Source: an uncultured Gallionellaceae bacterium (GTDB lineage Bacteria; Pseudomonadota; Gammaproteobacteria; Burkholderiales; Gallionellaceae). Taken from it: a stretch of 59,059 nucleotides of DNA. The translations under genes were made by a program, and so were the position numbers. This document shows, piece after piece, positions 2,878 to 49,848 of this stretch; the stretch's first letter is position 1; every line of letters starts with the position of its first letter. The stretch is taken from NCBI GenBank assembly GCA_903876625.1, contig CAIRAO010000035.1, forward strand, positions 1 to 59,059, read 5' to 3'. Below the pieces are notes generated by a model. It had not been told where the DNA came from. It searched no databases and saw only the letters and a program-made list of their open reading frames with translations.

Positions 2878-2904
2878 GTTGAGATGATATATTTAGGGGA
2901 ACAA

Positions 2905-3011
2905 CCCCCTCCCTAGCCCCCCCCGGCGGGAGAGAGAGCAAATTAATCACTCCGAAACAGAAGTAGGCATTTCTACTCCCTCTCCCACCGGGGGAGGGCT
3001 GGGGAGGGGGT
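2905..3011. repeat. C/G-rich palindromic REP-like pair (two inverted copies)
   Basis: ccccctccctagccccccccggcgggagagagagcaaa ... tactccctctcccaccgggggagggctggggagggggt. Confidence 0.85.
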
Positions 3012-16894: not shown

Positions 16895-17974
16895 TCACCC
16901 AGAATATATTCTCTTAAGTAACTTCCTTACAGGTGTCGGTATTGCAGCGCCTAATGCCTCTTCCACATCCAGCCATACGTTGCCAGCTTGATGTGCTTGA
17001 AATGGCTTACTTGCCACACGTAAAATAATTGGCGTTATGTGCAATTTAAAATGTGTGAAGGTGTGAGTAAATTCGTCCATAACGGTTCGTTCATTTACTT
17101 TCAGACCATTGTGTTGAATATATTCCTCCTCCTTACTCTCACTCTCCACTTGCGGTGGACACCAAAGCCCTCCCCATATTCCACTTCCGGGACGCTTTTC
17201 CAGCAGAATATCGTTGTCTTGCATGACCATTAAAAAAATTGAGTTTTTTTCCGGAACAACTTTGCGCGGACGTGAAGTCGGAAGTTCGGCAATGCGGTCT
17301 TTCAGCAGCGCAAAGCAATCTGCTTGTATGGGACAGATTGCACATTTGGGGCGAGTACGTATGCAGACGGTAGCTCCCATGTCCATCAGCGCTTGAGTAT
17401 AGATGGCGATGTCTGAAGGCGCTTCGACGGCATTCCCCCCTCCCCAGCCCCCCACCGGAGGGAGAGGAAGCAGAAGCTCGGCTTGTTGCCAGAGTTGTGC
17501 TTCGACTTTCTTATTTCCTGCCCATCCTTCGATACCGCAATATCGTGCTAATAGTCTCTTGACGTTTCCATCCAAAATTGCATGGCGTTCGTGAAATGCA
17601 AGTGCGCAGACCGCAGAAGCAGTTGAACGTCCAATACCTGGCAATTCAATAATTTGCCTGAAATCTCGTGGAAAATCACCGTGATATTTTTCAGCGATAA
17701 TTTGCGCTGCACGGTGCAGATTGCGACCTCGCGCGTAGTAGCCGAGACCGCTCCAGTGTGATAGCACTTGTTCTTCAGTCGCAGTAGCAAGAGTCGCAAT
17801 ATTTGGGAATGAAGTGACAAAGCGCTGGTAATAAGGAATGACAGTGGCGACTTGCGTCTGCTGCAGCATGATCTCGGACAGCCATATGCGATAGGCATCA
17901 GCACCCTGCCATGGCAGGTCGTGGCGTCCGTTAGTGCGCTGCCATTCTATAAGTCGTGTAGCGAAATCATTCAT
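16895..17974 (-). CDS. mutY: A/G-specific adenine glycosylase
   Basis: LPWQGADAYRIWLSEIMLQQTQVATVIPYYQRF; 4Fe-4S CIRTRPKCAICPIQADC; contains an in-frame repeat-derived insert LPLPPVGGWGGG. Confidence 0.95.
   Translation of the reverse strand: MNDFATRLIEWQRTNGRHDLPWQGADAYRIWLSEIMLQQTQVATVIPYYQRFVTSFPNIATLATATEEQVLSHWSGLGYYARGRNLHRAAQIIAEKYHGDFPRDFRQIIELPGIGRSTASAVCALAFHERHAILDGNVKRLLARYCGIEGWAGNKKVEAQLWQQAELLLPLPPVGGWGGGNAVEAPSDIAIYTQALMDMGATVCIRTRPKCAICPIQADCFALLKDRIAELPTSRPRKVVPEKNSIFLMVMQDNDILLEKRPGSGIWGGLWCPPQVESESKEEEYIQHNGLKVNERTVMDEFTHTFTHFKLHITPIILRVASKPFQAHQAGNVWLDVEEALGAAIPTPVRKLLKRIYSG
17435..17471. repeat. REP-like repeat copy embedded in mutY coding sequence
   Basis: cccccctccccagccccccaccggagggagaggaagc. 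Confidence 0.85.
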
Positions 17975-20874: not shown

Positions 20875-21612
20875 GTGCAAAAAGCTTTTACCGTCGCACC
20901 CAAACAAATCGCCTGCTCCAACTGCAGCTTGCGCGAGTTCTGCTTATCCGCAGATTTCACCCAAGCGGAACTGCTTCAATTGGAAACCGTTACCAGTATC
21001 AAACGTGCCTACCGTCGCGGAGATTATCTTTACCACAGTGGTGCCAAGTTCACCTCACTGTATGCCATCCGTTCCGGTTTTTTTAAAACGCAAGTACTGC
21101 ACGAAAATGGGCGCGAGCAGGTCACAGGCTTTCAAATGGCAGGCGAGATCATCGGCCTCGATGCGATCAGCACCGACACCCATACTTGTGATGCCGTGGC
21201 ACTGGAAGACAGCGAGGTTTGCGAGCTGCCATTTGATCAACTGGAAGAACTCAGCCGCAAATTGCCCGCGTTGCAACGCCATCTGCACAAAATCATGAGT
21301 AGCGAAATTGTGCGCGATCAAGGCATCATGCTTTTGCTTGGGTCGATGCGCGCTGAAGAACGCCTTGCCGCTTTTCTGTTAAACCTTTCACAGCGTTTTG
21401 CAGCGCGCGGATATTCCGCTATTGCTTTCAAATTACGCATGACACGGCAAGAGATTGGCAGTTATTTGGGCTTAAAGCTGGAAACCGTGAGTCGTACCCT
21501 GTCGTATTTCCAAGAAAGCGATTTGGTTGAAGTACATGGAAAATCAATAGAGCTACTCGATATGTCGCGCTTGCTCGGGCTGGTGGGGCAACAACGCTCG
21601 ACACAATTTTGA
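20875..21612 (+). CDS. fnr: FNR-type Crp family transcriptional regulator
   Basis: N-terminal CSNCSLREFCLS cysteines; HTH TRQEIGSYLGLKLETVSRTLSYFQ; GTG start. Confidence 0.93.
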   Translation: MQKAFTVAPKQIACSNCSLREFCLSADFTQAELLQLETVTSIKRAYRRGDYLYHSGAKFTSLYAIRSGFFKTQVLHENGREQVTGFQMAGEIIGLDAISTDTHTCDAVALEDSEVCELPFDQLEELSRKLPALQRHLHKIMSSEIVRDQGIMLLLGSMRAEERLAAFLLNLSQRFAARGYSAIAFKLRMTRQEIGSYLGLKLETVSRTLSYFQESDLVEVHGKSIELLDMSRLLGLVGQQRSTQF

Positions 21613-21613
21613 C

Positions 21614-21687
21614 TGGAGCGGGTGAACGGGATCGAACCGTCGTATGCAGCTTGGGAAGCTGCCGTTCTACCATTGAACTACACCCGC
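21614..21687 (-). tRNA. tRNA-Gly(CCC) with encoded CCA
   Basis: Reverse strand GCGGGTGTAGTTCAATGGTAGAACGGCAGCTTCCCAAGCTGCATACGACGGTTCGATCCCGTTCACCCGCTCCA; anticodon loop TTCCCAA. Confidence 0.96.
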
Positions 21688-21763
21688 GAAGACTTAGATT
21701 TTACGCAGGTTACAGCGAATATTCAAATCACAGCATCCTTACAGTGACGAACATTACGGATTC

Positions 21764-21801
21764 CACCATGGTGAATGCTGTTTGAATTGTTGATTGTGTT
21801 T
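21764..21801 (+). repeat. Left arm of 38-bp inverted repeat flanking methyltransferase gene
   Basis: caccatggtgaatgctgtttgaattgttgattgtgttt; 35/38 match to reverse complement of 22772-22809. Confidence 0.93.
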
Positions 21802-21927
21802 CACCGCTATTACGAGTTTCGGGGTGACTGTGGAGACAATGATTGATAGTAGACGATACAATCAGACAAATATCGGATAAGAAGACGGTTGCTTAAAAGC
21901 TTAACGAAAAAGTTTCGTATTCAAAAA

Positions 21928-22752
21928 ATGAATACGCATGAATCCATAGAGTACAAAAAATCTGTTGCCGAACTCTATTCAAGACGAAGCCGTAGTTATG
22001 ATAGAAGTGAATGGCATGATCGAATGGCTCGAAATATCGTCGACTATGCTGAGATAAAGTCTGGTTCTAAAGTTTTGGATATTGCCACAGGAACAGGCAT
22101 GGTGGCATTTTATGCAGCTTCCAAAACAGGATCGGATGGCGCTGTTATTGGAATTGATATATCTGAAGGAATGATTCAAATATCTAATACAAAATTGAAA
22201 TCATCTGAATTTTCGAATATCAAATTTGAAATCGGTGATGGAGAAACTCTTGCCTATGAGGACAAAAGTTTTGATTACATTTTTTGTGGCTCTGTGTTGA
22301 TATGGATGACAGACCTTCAATCAGCTTTGGTTCATTGGCGTTCAAAGCTAAAAGATACAGGAAAAGTTGGATTTCATGCGTTCTCTGAAAATGCATTTGT
22401 GTCTGGCGTAGTAGCCCAATCTGTTCTCGAAAAGTTTGGCGTTTCATATTTGATGAACAAACCAACAGGGTCAGTGGAAAAATGCGAGAAACTATTAACG
22501 CAAGCAGGTTACAGAAATATCGATATAAAAATTGATGCCGATGGCAATTATATTAGCAAAGAAGATGCGCTGAATTCATGGGTTACTGCTACGCACCCAG
22601 CACCGGGACAATTTCCGCACCCAATGTCAACAATGACTGAAAAACAAATATCCGAGGCGCAGTCTGATTTTGAGCGTGAGATTGAAATGTTAAATACCAA
22701 CAGAGGCATTTGGAATGATATGACTACCTATTACGTATTTGGAAAAAAATAG
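21928..22752 (+). CDS. Class I SAM-dependent methyltransferase (UbiE/COQ5-like)
   Basis: VLDIATGTGMVAFYAASKTGSDGAVIGIDISEGMIQ motif I; AT-rich compared with neighbours. Confidence 0.85.
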   Translation: MNTHESIEYKKSVAELYSRRSRSYDRSEWHDRMARNIVDYAEIKSGSKVLDIATGTGMVAFYAASKTGSDGAVIGIDISEGMIQISNTKLKSSEFSNIKFEIGDGETLAYEDKSFDYIFCGSVLIWMTDLQSALVHWRSKLKDTGKVGFHAFSENAFVSGVVAQSVLEKFGVSYLMNKPTGSVEKCEKLLTQAGYRNIDIKIDADGNYISKEDALNSWVTATHPAPGQFPHPMSTMTEKQISEAQSDFEREIEMLNTNRGIWNDMTTYYVFGKK

Positions 22753-22771
22753 GGATTCGTTTGTTGCTCAA

Positions 22772-22809
22772 AAACACAATCAACAATTCAAACAGAATTC
22801 ACCGCGGTG
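22772..22809 (-). repeat. Right arm of 38-bp inverted repeat flanking methyltransferase gene
   Basis: aaacacaatcaacaattcaaacagaattcaccgcggtg. Confidence 0.93.
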
Positions 22810-22947
22810 AAATTCGCTATATCACTGATTCTGTTCCTAGCCCACATCGATATATGAAATATAGATAAGCAATCGAAAAATAATTGGTTCACGCGCACAA
22901 AGCAAATTCCTAAGATGCATCCAGTCGTGATGTTCAAAGGAATACAT

Positions 22948-23337
22948 ATGCAACTTGATTCAGGTCATAACAAGATCTCAAACCTAAGTTATTGGGGTAA
23001 ACCTCGCGTTAACCAACCAATCACACTAGACAGGTTGCAGATTTTGCCAAATTCAAATCACGTTCTTGTTGACGGATTCAATATTTTTTTGAGGCCTGTG
23101 GAGTTTCGTCTATTGCATTTCTTTATGACGCATCCCGACGAAGTTCACACTCGCGAACAATTACTCGAAGATGTTTGGGGCGACTGGTCCGTCGTTGGTT
23201 CGCGCACCATTGATGTTCACATCCGTCGGCTAAGAGTCCTGCTGCAGCCGTTCAGTCTCGACAGATGGATACAGACAGTGCATTGCAGAGGCTATTTATT
23301 TTCACCCGATTTAACTAAAGATTCATCTATTAACTAA
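22948..23337 (+). CDS. Stand-alone OmpR/PhoB-type winged-helix DNA-binding protein (no receiver domain)
   Basis: RPVEFRLLHFFMTHPDEVHTREQLLEDVWGDWSVVGSRTIDVHIRRLRVLL...VHCRGYLF; too short to hold a receiver domain. Confidence 0.8.
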   Translation: MQLDSGHNKISNLSYWGKPRVNQPITLDRLQILPNSNHVLVDGFNIFLRPVEFRLLHFFMTHPDEVHTREQLLEDVWGDWSVVGSRTIDVHIRRLRVLLQPFSLDRWIQTVHCRGYLFSPDLTKDSSIN

Positions 23338-28653: not shown

Positions 28654-28703
28654 AATCCGTAAATAAAGTTGGTCAATTAGTTTTCAAGAAAATTTGGGGG
28701 TCA

Positions 28704-28863
28704 CCCCCTCCCCAACCCTCCCCCGGTGGGAGAGGGAGCAAACTCGCAACCACGAAAATAATTAAATATTTTTCCTTTCTTCCGTGAACCACGTAAAAAT
28801 ATTTCTGACCGAGCGCCCTGAAGTTATACTCCCTCTCCCACCGGGGGAGGGTTGGGGAGGGGG
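28704..28863. repeat. C/G-rich palindromic REP-like pair
   Basis: ccccctccccaaccctcccccggtgggagagggagcaaa ... ctccctctcccaccgggggagggttggggagggggtt. Confidence 0.87.
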
Positions 28864-28941
28864 TTGAACTTCGCAGCTATTCAAGAAAATATTTTCAAAA
28901 AAATGGGCACCTAAAGAGGCGCCCAAAAGGGAGGAGAAAAT

Positions 28942-36917: not shown

Positions 36918-39713
36918 TTAATGAGCATCATCCCAATTCGCGCCCTCGCCCAACCCGACTTCCAGAGGTACTTTCAATTCGGCAACGTTGCACATCAGTT
37001 CGCGCACTTTTTCTTTTACAAGGGCTAATTCGGTCTGCAGCACCTCGAGTACCAGTTCATCGTGTACTTGCATGATTAGCATGCTTTGTAGCTTTTCTTG
37101 CTCCAACCAGTTTTGTACTTTAACCATCGCCAGTTTGATCAAGTCTGCCGCCGTGCCTTGCATAGGGGCATTGATGGCGGCACGTTCGGCGGCTTGACGG
37201 CGCATGCCGTTTGCGCCATTGATCTCGGGCAACCATAATCTGCGCCCGAACCACGTCTCGACATAACCTTTATTCTTTGCCAGTTCACGGGTGCGATCCA
37301 TATAATTTTTCACGCCGGGGTAACGTGCGAAATAGAGATCGATATATTGCTGCGCGGCACTGCGTTCGATGTTGAGTTGGCTTGCGAGCCCGAAGGCGGA
37401 CATGCCATAGATCAGGCCGAAGTTGATGACCTTGGCATAACGGCGTTGCTCGCTGCTCACGGCATCCAGGGTTGCACCGAAAACCTCAGCCGCAGTGGCG
37501 CGATGAATGTCTTCGCCGTTTGCGAATGCTTTGAGCAGGCCTTCATCTCCAGATAGGTGCGCCATGATGCGCAATTCGATCTGAGAGTAGTCGGCAGAAA
37601 CAATACTTGAACCCGCTGGTGCGATAAACGCTTCTCGGATGCGCCGACCTTCGGCAGAACGTATCGGAATATTTTGCAGGTTGGGATCGTTGGAAGCGAG
37701 GCGCCCAGTTACTGCAACAGCTTGTGAATAGCTTGTATGAACACGCCCGGTGTTTCGGTTCACCATCTTTGGTAATTTATCGGTGTAGGTAGATTTAAGT
37801 TTTGCCATACTGCGATATTCCAGCAGCAATTTTGGCAACGGATAATCCAAAGCCAACTCTTGCAACACATCTTCGTCTGTGGAACGTGCTCCATTGGGTG
37901 TTTTTTTCTTCGAGGGAATTCCAAGTTTATCGAATAGAATTTCCTGCAACTGTTTGGGTGAACTTAAATTGAACGGTTGTCCTGCATGCTCAAATGCCTG
38001 TGCTTCAATCAGCAATAATTTTTCGCCCAATTCCCGACTTTGGATATTGAGCAACTGCGTATCCAGCAGTACACCGTTGCGCTCCATCACGTACAGCGCT
38101 TGTCGCGCGGGCAACTCAATGTCGCGGTAAACCGAGTCCAAACGGCCCATTAGCTGCGGTGATAAGTTTTGATGCAATTGCAAAGTAATGTCGGCATCTT
38201 CCGCCGAGTAGCGTGTCGCCGTGTAGAGGTCAACTTGATCAAAGCCGATTTGCTTGGCACCTTTACCCACCACATCTGCGTAACTGATCGTGCTCAGACC
38301 CAAATGTCGCAAAGCGAGATTGCCCATGTCGTGCGGTTTGTGGCTTTCCAGCACGTAGGATTGTAACAAGGTATCTTCGGCGACACCTGCCAAGGCAATG
38401 CCATGATTGGCAAATATGTGCTGATCGTAATTGAGATTTTGTCCCAGCTTTTTGTGTTCTGCACTTTCCAGCCAGTACTTGAGTTTTTGCAACGCATATT
38501 CACGATTCAACTGACCCGGCGCACCCGGGTAGTGATGCGCCAAAGGCAGATAAGCAGCGTGATGGACTTCGATAGAAAAGGAAATACCGACCAGTTGCTC
38601 GTTCATGACGTCGAGCCCGGTGGTCTCGGTATCAATGCTTACTAGCGGCGCTTGCATGATCTTGGCTATCCACTCATCGAGTTGGGCTTCGGTGAGGATG
38701 GATTCGTAGTGCGAGGTATCGTTGCGGAACAGTTCGCCGGTTGAGGGTTCTAGTTCCCTCTCCCACCGGGGGAGGGTTAGGGACGGGGTGCTTTTGCTTG
38801 CGGAGGAATGTTCGCCAGATTCTCCCCCTCCCCAGCCCTCCCCCGGTGGGAGAGGGAGCAAATTCGCTGGGTGGGATATTTCTCTTAGCCAGCTCTTGAA
38901 GCCAAAGGTCTCAAACAGTCCGCGCAATTTCTCCGTATCCTGCTGCGGCGCCACAAGCTGATCAAACCTTACCGGCAATTCAACATCACACTTTACGGTC
39001 ACCAGCCTGCGCCCTTGCGGCAACCAATCCAGTGCCACGCGTAGATTTTCGCCGACCACTCCGCTAATTTTATCCGCATTAGTTACCAAATTATCCAGCG
39101 TGCCATATTCAGTCAACCACTTAACCGCCGTTTTCGGACCGCATTTGGTGACGCCCGGCACGTTATCCACGGTGTCGCCCACCAAGGTAAGATAATCCAC
39201 AATACGCTCAGGCGGCACGCCAAACTTGACCATTACGCCCGCTTCATCCAAGGTTTCGTTGCTCATGGTGTTGATGAGTTGTACTTGAGCATTGACTAGC
39301 TGAGTCAAGTCTTTGTCACCGGTAGAAATAATGCAGCGTGCACCGCCTTCTGCAGCTTGTTTTGCCAAAGTGCCGATCACATCGTCCGCCTCAACTCCGT
39401 CAATCATCAAAATATTCCAGCCGTAAGCCGCGACGGCCTCATGCAGCGGTTCAATTTGCGCGCGCAAGTCCTCTGGCATGGATGGACGATTGGCCTTGTA
39501 CTCTGAATACCAGTCGTCGCGGAAAGTTTTGCCTTTGGCGTCAAATACGCAGGCGCTATAATCCGCCGGGTAATCTTTTTGCAAACGGCGCAGCATATTG
39601 AGCACGCCCTGTATGGCTCCCGTGGGTAAGCCGCCCGGGCTGCGTAAATCAGGCATCGCATGGAATGCGCGATACAGGTAAGATGAGCCGTCGACTAATA
39701 ACAATGTTTTCAT
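36918..39713 (-). CDS. polA: DNA polymerase I
   Basis: LLVDGSSYLYRAFHAMPDLRSPGGLPTGAIQGVLNML; SIDTETTGLD exo motif; SADYSQIELRIMAHLSGD; contains repeat-derived interdomain insert. Confidence 0.97.
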   Translation of the reverse strand: MKTLLLVDGSSYLYRAFHAMPDLRSPGGLPTGAIQGVLNMLRRLQKDYPADYSACVFDAKGKTFRDDWYSEYKANRPSMPEDLRAQIEPLHEAVAAYGWNILMIDGVEADDVIGTLAKQAAEGGARCIISTGDKDLTQLVNAQVQLINTMSNETLDEAGVMVKFGVPPERIVDYLTLVGDTVDNVPGVTKCGPKTAVKWLTEYGTLDNLVTNADKISGVVGENLRVALDWLPQGRRLVTVKCDVELPVRFDQLVAPQQDTEKLRGLFETFGFKSWLREISHPANLLPLPPGEGWGGGESGEHSSASKSTPSLTLPRWERELEPSTGELFRNDTSHYESILTEAQLDEWIAKIMQAPLVSIDTETTGLDVMNEQLVGISFSIEVHHAAYLPLAHHYPGAPGQLNREYALQKLKYWLESAEHKKLGQNLNYDQHIFANHGIALAGVAEDTLLQSYVLESHKPHDMGNLALRHLGLSTISYADVVGKGAKQIGFDQVDLYTATRYSAEDADITLQLHQNLSPQLMGRLDSVYRDIELPARQALYVMERNGVLLDTQLLNIQSRELGEKLLLIEAQAFEHAGQPFNLSSPKQLQEILFDKLGIPSKKKTPNGARSTDEDVLQELALDYPLPKLLLEYRSMAKLKSTYTDKLPKMVNRNTGRVHTSYSQAVAVTGRLASNDPNLQNIPIRSAEGRRIREAFIAPAGSSIVSADYSQIELRIMAHLSGDEGLLKAFANGEDIHRATAAEVFGATLDAVSSEQRRYAKVINFGLIYGMSAFGLASQLNIERSAAQQYIDLYFARYPGVKNYMDRTRELAKNKGYVETWFGRRLWLPEINGANGMRRQAAERAAINAPMQGTAADLIKLAMVKVQNWLEQEKLQSMLIMQVHDELVLEVLQTELALVKEKVRELMCNVAELKVPLEVGLGEGANWDDAH
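38754..38861. repeat. REP-like inverted pair embedded in frame in polA
   Basis: ccctctcccaccgggggagggttagggacgggg ... ccccctccccagccctcccccggtgggagagggagcaaa. Confidence 0.9.
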
Positions 39714-49709: not shown

Positions 49710-49848
49710 GAGCGGTTTGATTCCAACAATTAGATGATGATCGAATGTTACAGTAATTTTTTGACTTACTCGATAGTTCAACGGCAACCATGGTGCTACA
49801 ATACTTTCTTGCGGATTTTAATTCTGCTTGGCTAGGCGCCGATCTATC

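Follow-up and report, generated by a model that had tools for sequence, protein, structure and literature searches.

The window analysed here, a 59,059-nt stretch of DNA from an uncultured Gallionellaceae bacterium, contains a pair of long inverted repeats that bracket a single methyltransferase gene close to a tRNA-Gly gene, and the question that this locus raises is whether the repeats are the ends of a transposon-like or invertible cassette, as the first-pass annotation proposed, or have some other origin. The 38 nt cores of the two arms (21764–21801 and 22772–22809) are reverse-complementary at 35 of 38 positions on recomputation, in agreement with the near-perfect repeats claimed earlier, and the palindrome described at the outer end of each arm is present on both. 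The core was thus correctly placed, but the repeat runs past the CACC palindrome, and the inverted match extends outward to 45 nt (21757–21801 and 22772–22816; 40 of 45 positions, 89%). Among inverted pairs lying within 3 kb of each other this is the longest in the window; the cross-arm BLAST match has an E value of 4e-9 against the whole of its own genome, and for the near-identical pattern zero matches are expected in shuffled sequence. The sequence TTYCACCNNGGTGAA occurs only at these two sites across eight genomes of the genus, and the idea that the palindrome is a genome-wide operator was rejected because of this restriction. The tRNA-Gly(CCC) gene is separated from the 38-mer by 76 bp (about 75 bp had been claimed), and an Rfam search returned nothing besides the tRNA. 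The features are as follows.

21614–21687, minus strand: functional tRNA-Gly(CCC) gene (ARAGORN; Rfam RF00005, 69.2 bits)
21688–21756, minus strand: tRNA-Gly upstream/promoter region (TTGAAT-17-TAAAAT), collinear in relative G120, with a related module facing thiS in three genomes
21757–21801, plus strand: left repeat arm of 45 nt, which in G120 runs on into both the tRNA upstream region and the interior block
21802–21843, plus strand: interior block that follows the left arm (CACCGCTATTACGAGTTTCGGGGTGACTGTGG...) and whose conserved G120 counterpart adjoins the right arm
21931–22752, plus strand: lone gene for a class I SAM-dependent methyltransferase, 273 aa counted from ATG (Pfam PF13847, 4e-24)
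22772–22816, minus strand: right arm, the inverted copy of 21757–21801 (40/45)
22817–22916, no strand assigned: expected place of a decayed inverted copy of tRNA-Gly should the right arm be ancestral, with a weak match to the G120 copy and none to the tRNA side of the window

The gene between the arms is accompanied by no transposase or recombinase gene, and the earlier description of a lone AT-rich SAM methyltransferase gene is borne out by the class I domain and by a GC content of 0.384, lower than that of its 400-bp flanks (0.416) and of the surrounding region (mostly 0.45–0.50). The longest open reading frame starts with TTG at 21889, and ATG at 21931 is the likely start because similarity to relatives begins near there. 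On its sequence the product is assignable to the class I fold only: it falls below the NCBIfam cut-off for each of the best 25 models, its PADLOC match to mad2 takes in about 148 of the profile's 492 positions, and the best PDB matches, by domain, are phosphoethanolamine methyltransferases. Homologues 54–84% identical are present in five genomes of the family, with nucleotide similarity to the window confined to the gene, and related methyltransferase genes occur in 18 of 158 family genomes (its own included), in unrelated surroundings where these were examined. No inverted repeats were found around ten of the homologues (four close ones with both flanks available and six more distant). The gene is probably acquired cargo.

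Relative G120 puts the arms in a different light. It has the same fnr–tRNA-Gly pair, followed by a 137-nt inverted repeat with 87% identity (L105 3009–3144 and 4433–4569) that is composed of the 5′ half of tRNA-Gly as its outer part, the tRNA promoter and the arm; within it lie a gene for a TumE-family toxin and its HVO_A0114-type partner (L105 3471–4096), and thiS–thiG come next. Positions 21647–21843 of the window align with the right copy of the G120 repeat over 198 bp at 80%, unbroken at 21757 and 21764, and the collinear stretch spans the interior of tRNA-Gly, the promoter, the arm and the supposed interior of the cassette. G120 has no methyltransferase gene here; its own lies on another contig. 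The junction with host DNA at the left arm is accordingly not abrupt, and since G120 lacks the gene here yet has continuous sequence on both sides of the supposed left boundary, that boundary is not the end of an element. The first-pass annotation had itself named, as a pattern that would tell against its cassette, arms kept as syntenic intergenic DNA in relatives lacking the gene, and G120 comes close to this; it is the one comparison genome in which the arms are present, and the assemblies are fragmented MAGs. There are also differences between the two genomes. First, the interior block adjoins the tRNA-side arm in the window, whereas in G120 it adjoins the arm nearer thiS. Second, the inner end of the repeat is not the same. 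Third, the two arms of the window resemble each other more than either resembles the arm of G120, and they have in common a CACCNNGGTG palindrome that G120 lacks, which calls either for conversion or for a separate copy made later.

The wider neighbourhood of tRNA-Gly and thiS varies across relatives. In the outgroups G115, G116, G117 and G133, tRNA-Gly is directly beside thiS with a short gap and without promoter-like modules. The fnr gene adjoins tRNA-Gly in the genome of the window, G114 and G120, and is about 11 kb away in G116 and G117, where the intervening block (L121, L120) contains open reading frames that read by eye as a cbb3-oxidase operon; this block is absent from the window (20875–21687), from G114 and from G120. 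Modules of the form TTGAGTATT...ACGTAAAATC face thiS in G120, in G114 and on contig C138 of the genome of the window, like the tRNA promoter, and in these three genomes the tRNA and thiS are each preceded by TTGA[A/G]TATT...ACGTAAAATC or a close variant, oriented towards the gene. The thiS gene of this genome is on C138 rather than in the window, together with its module, and upstream of it, after cysA–cysB-like genes, there is a degenerate copy of tRNA-Gly, first found by BLAST (the nhmmer value of 9.5e-19 is not independent, because the C138 copy was in the profile). An open reading frame between this degenerate copy and the module preceding thiS (L118 4560–5400) reads like an outer-membrane protein. 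A weak tRNA-like profile match near position 49822 of the window was judged to be due to chance. Partial copies of the tRNA region are thus present beyond the variable DNA both in G120 and at C138, and the content of the slot differs: the methyltransferase in the window, the TumE pair in G120 and other sequence in G114.

Just outside the right arm, an eroded inverted copy of tRNA-Gly would be expected at 22817–22916 if that arm is ancestral. Scored against the G120 copy, this flank is equalled by 52 of 3887 random windows (13 of 223 when GC-matched), and against the window's own copy by 1586 of 3904 (98 of 215 when GC-matched). It does not reach significance as a tRNA pseudogene, the resemblance to G120 being weak and the match to its own copy no better than chance. 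Immediately beyond, 22915–23337 encodes a 140-aa protein with a PhoB-type regulator DNA-binding domain alone, without a receiver domain, and this gene precedes two that read as encoding sulfate-binding proteins.

We consider it probable that the arms are not transposon ends, and that an old inverted duplication of the 5′ part of tRNA-Gly turned the gap between tRNA-Gly and thiS into a variable slot in which the methyltransferase gene is cargo. On this reading, a lineage ancestral to this genome and those nearest to it would have gained, between tRNA-Gly and thiS, an inverted second copy of the tRNA-Gly 5′ half together with the promoter and sequence further upstream, with the result that a promoter-like module faces thiS as well as the tRNA. 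The space between the copies may then have become a variable slot, filled differently in each lineage, with the methyltransferase gene in the window and a TumE-type toxin–antitoxin pair in G120. The 45-nt right arm of the window would most likely be the surviving inner end of the inverted copy, whose outer part either eroded or was cut off when the sulfate-binding-protein genes came to adjoin it, and the likeness of the arms was probably kept by gene conversion or by inversion between them. That the duplication was a single ancestral event, that the right arm descends from it, that conversion occurred, and that the events took this order is what we infer from the comparisons.

The right arm could instead be a later inverted copy of the left arm, made, for instance, through template switching during insertion of the methyltransferase gene, and unrelated to the duplication in G120. 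Several features are consistent with such a local event: the 89% identity of the arms within this genome and their common palindrome, the different extents of the repeats in the two genomes, and a right outer flank that is not clearly tRNA-like. It would, however, require that two sister genomes each made an inverted copy of the same upstream region, independently and at the same locus, which is less economical, and tRNA-derived copies facing thiS are found in the genome of the window too. We regard it as unlikely.

A non-autonomous transposon-like cassette, with the arms as terminal inverted repeats used in trans by a transposase and the methyltransferase gene as passenger, is suggested by the long near-perfect repeats, by the single AT-rich cargo gene with no transposase between them, and by the occurrence of related genes in unrelated surroundings in the family. 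We nonetheless find it decidedly improbable, for four reasons. First, the arm is a single-locus sequence: no further copies were found in the 3.93-Mb draft genome, and among the 158 family genomes it is present only in that of the window and in the congener G120, at the same fnr/tRNA-Gly locus, so that the genome-wide and family-wide search for the 38-mer, which had been proposed as a check on the cassette, speaks against it. An exact-pattern scan of 84,980 species genomes, in which diverged ends could be missed, recovered G120 (a Gallionellaceae MAG) and one unrelated Glaciecola contig. Viral contigs gave no match to the long arm pattern and two to the short one, which is short enough for a chance match in such a collection, and a distant blastn search of plasmids with the cassette gave none. 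As a positive control, the same kind of search with a dispersed palindromic repeat from the same window yielded 122 matches in its genome. Second, no matching direct repeat of 2–10 bp lies immediately outside the arms under any of three definitions of the ends. Third, the homologues elsewhere are not bracketed by inverted repeats. Fourth, in G120, which has no such gene here, the left "end" runs on into the sequence upstream of the tRNA. A look for a transposase or recombinase with matching ends had also been proposed as a check, and no recombinase is apparent by reading the ORF lists around the arms and the window ORFs of at least 200 aa. What survives of the proposed cassette is its cargo, since acquisition is probable and the G120 slot beside the same tRNA, also bracketed by repeats, holds a different cargo; a self-bounded transposon-like unit is not supported, given the single locus, the lack of a target duplication, the repeat-free homologues and the collinearity with G120.

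The palindromic repeats used as the control (CTCCCTCTCCCACCGGGGGAGGG-type) are at 28703–28864, 38755–38857 and 2902–3011 of the window, and the 122 matches count both strands and arms. The copy at 38755–38857 falls within the polA ORF, which reads through it in frame, and a mutY-like ORF (16895–17974) has a stretch similar to this repeat, also in frame.

The other half of the earlier proposal was an invertible segment; here recombination between the arms would flip the cargo and might switch its expression. This reading draws on the inverted arms about 1 kb apart, on the interior block being on opposite sides in the window and G120, as inversion would give, and on arms that are more alike within a genome than between genomes. 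However, the ORF lists contain no recombinase gene near the arms, and since the cargo differs between the genomes the position of the block is equally explained by unequal keeping or loss at the inner ends. A promoter-like site at 21833–21862, itself at chance level, is inside the segment, so that flipping would not obviously switch the gene. We give this reading little credence. A further elaboration, in which the paired inverted tRNA-Gly-derived repeats let related bacteria repeatedly swap or flip single-gene cargo by homology, with a promoter-like module directed outward to both the tRNA and thiS, strikes us as quite improbable.

The preferred history, an inverted tRNA-Gly duplication that made a variable slot, can be set beside three known kinds of locus. 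Mobile insertion cassettes (MIC231, mic-qnrD; defined here following PMC3913671) and Tn3-derived TIMEs carry cargo between inverted repeats but no transposase gene (PMC3913671, PMC4133298). The window resembles mobile insertion cassettes in that two inverted repeats bracket cargo and no transposase gene is present, but differs in that no target duplication, second copy or autonomous partner was found for its arms, and in that a relative has the arm running on from the chromosomal sequence upstream of the tRNA. Genomic islands adjacent to tRNA genes have variable cargo beside the tRNA gene, direct repeats of the tRNA 3′ end and an integrase. Here too cargo varies beside a tRNA gene and, in G120 and at C138, partial tRNA copies lie beyond the variable DNA; in contrast, the copies are inverted and cover the 5′ half and promoter rather than repeating the 3′ end directly, and no integrase is apparent in the listed ORFs. 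Phase-variable invertible DNA segments are flanked by inverted repeats, as is the roughly 1 kb here, where two relatives carry a conserved block at opposite ends; unlike in those segments, no invertase was seen and no second orientation of the same cargo was demonstrated. The description that finds support is of an acquired gene occupying a variable slot next to tRNA-Gly, a locus ordinary in kind.

The locus is a cautionary case, in that aligning a single relative was enough to show that convincing terminal inverted repeats on either side of one gene include continuous tRNA-upstream sequence. If the history proposed here is true, an inverted second copy of a tRNA promoter can make room for foreign genes and at the same time give the displaced neighbouring gene a promoter-like module.
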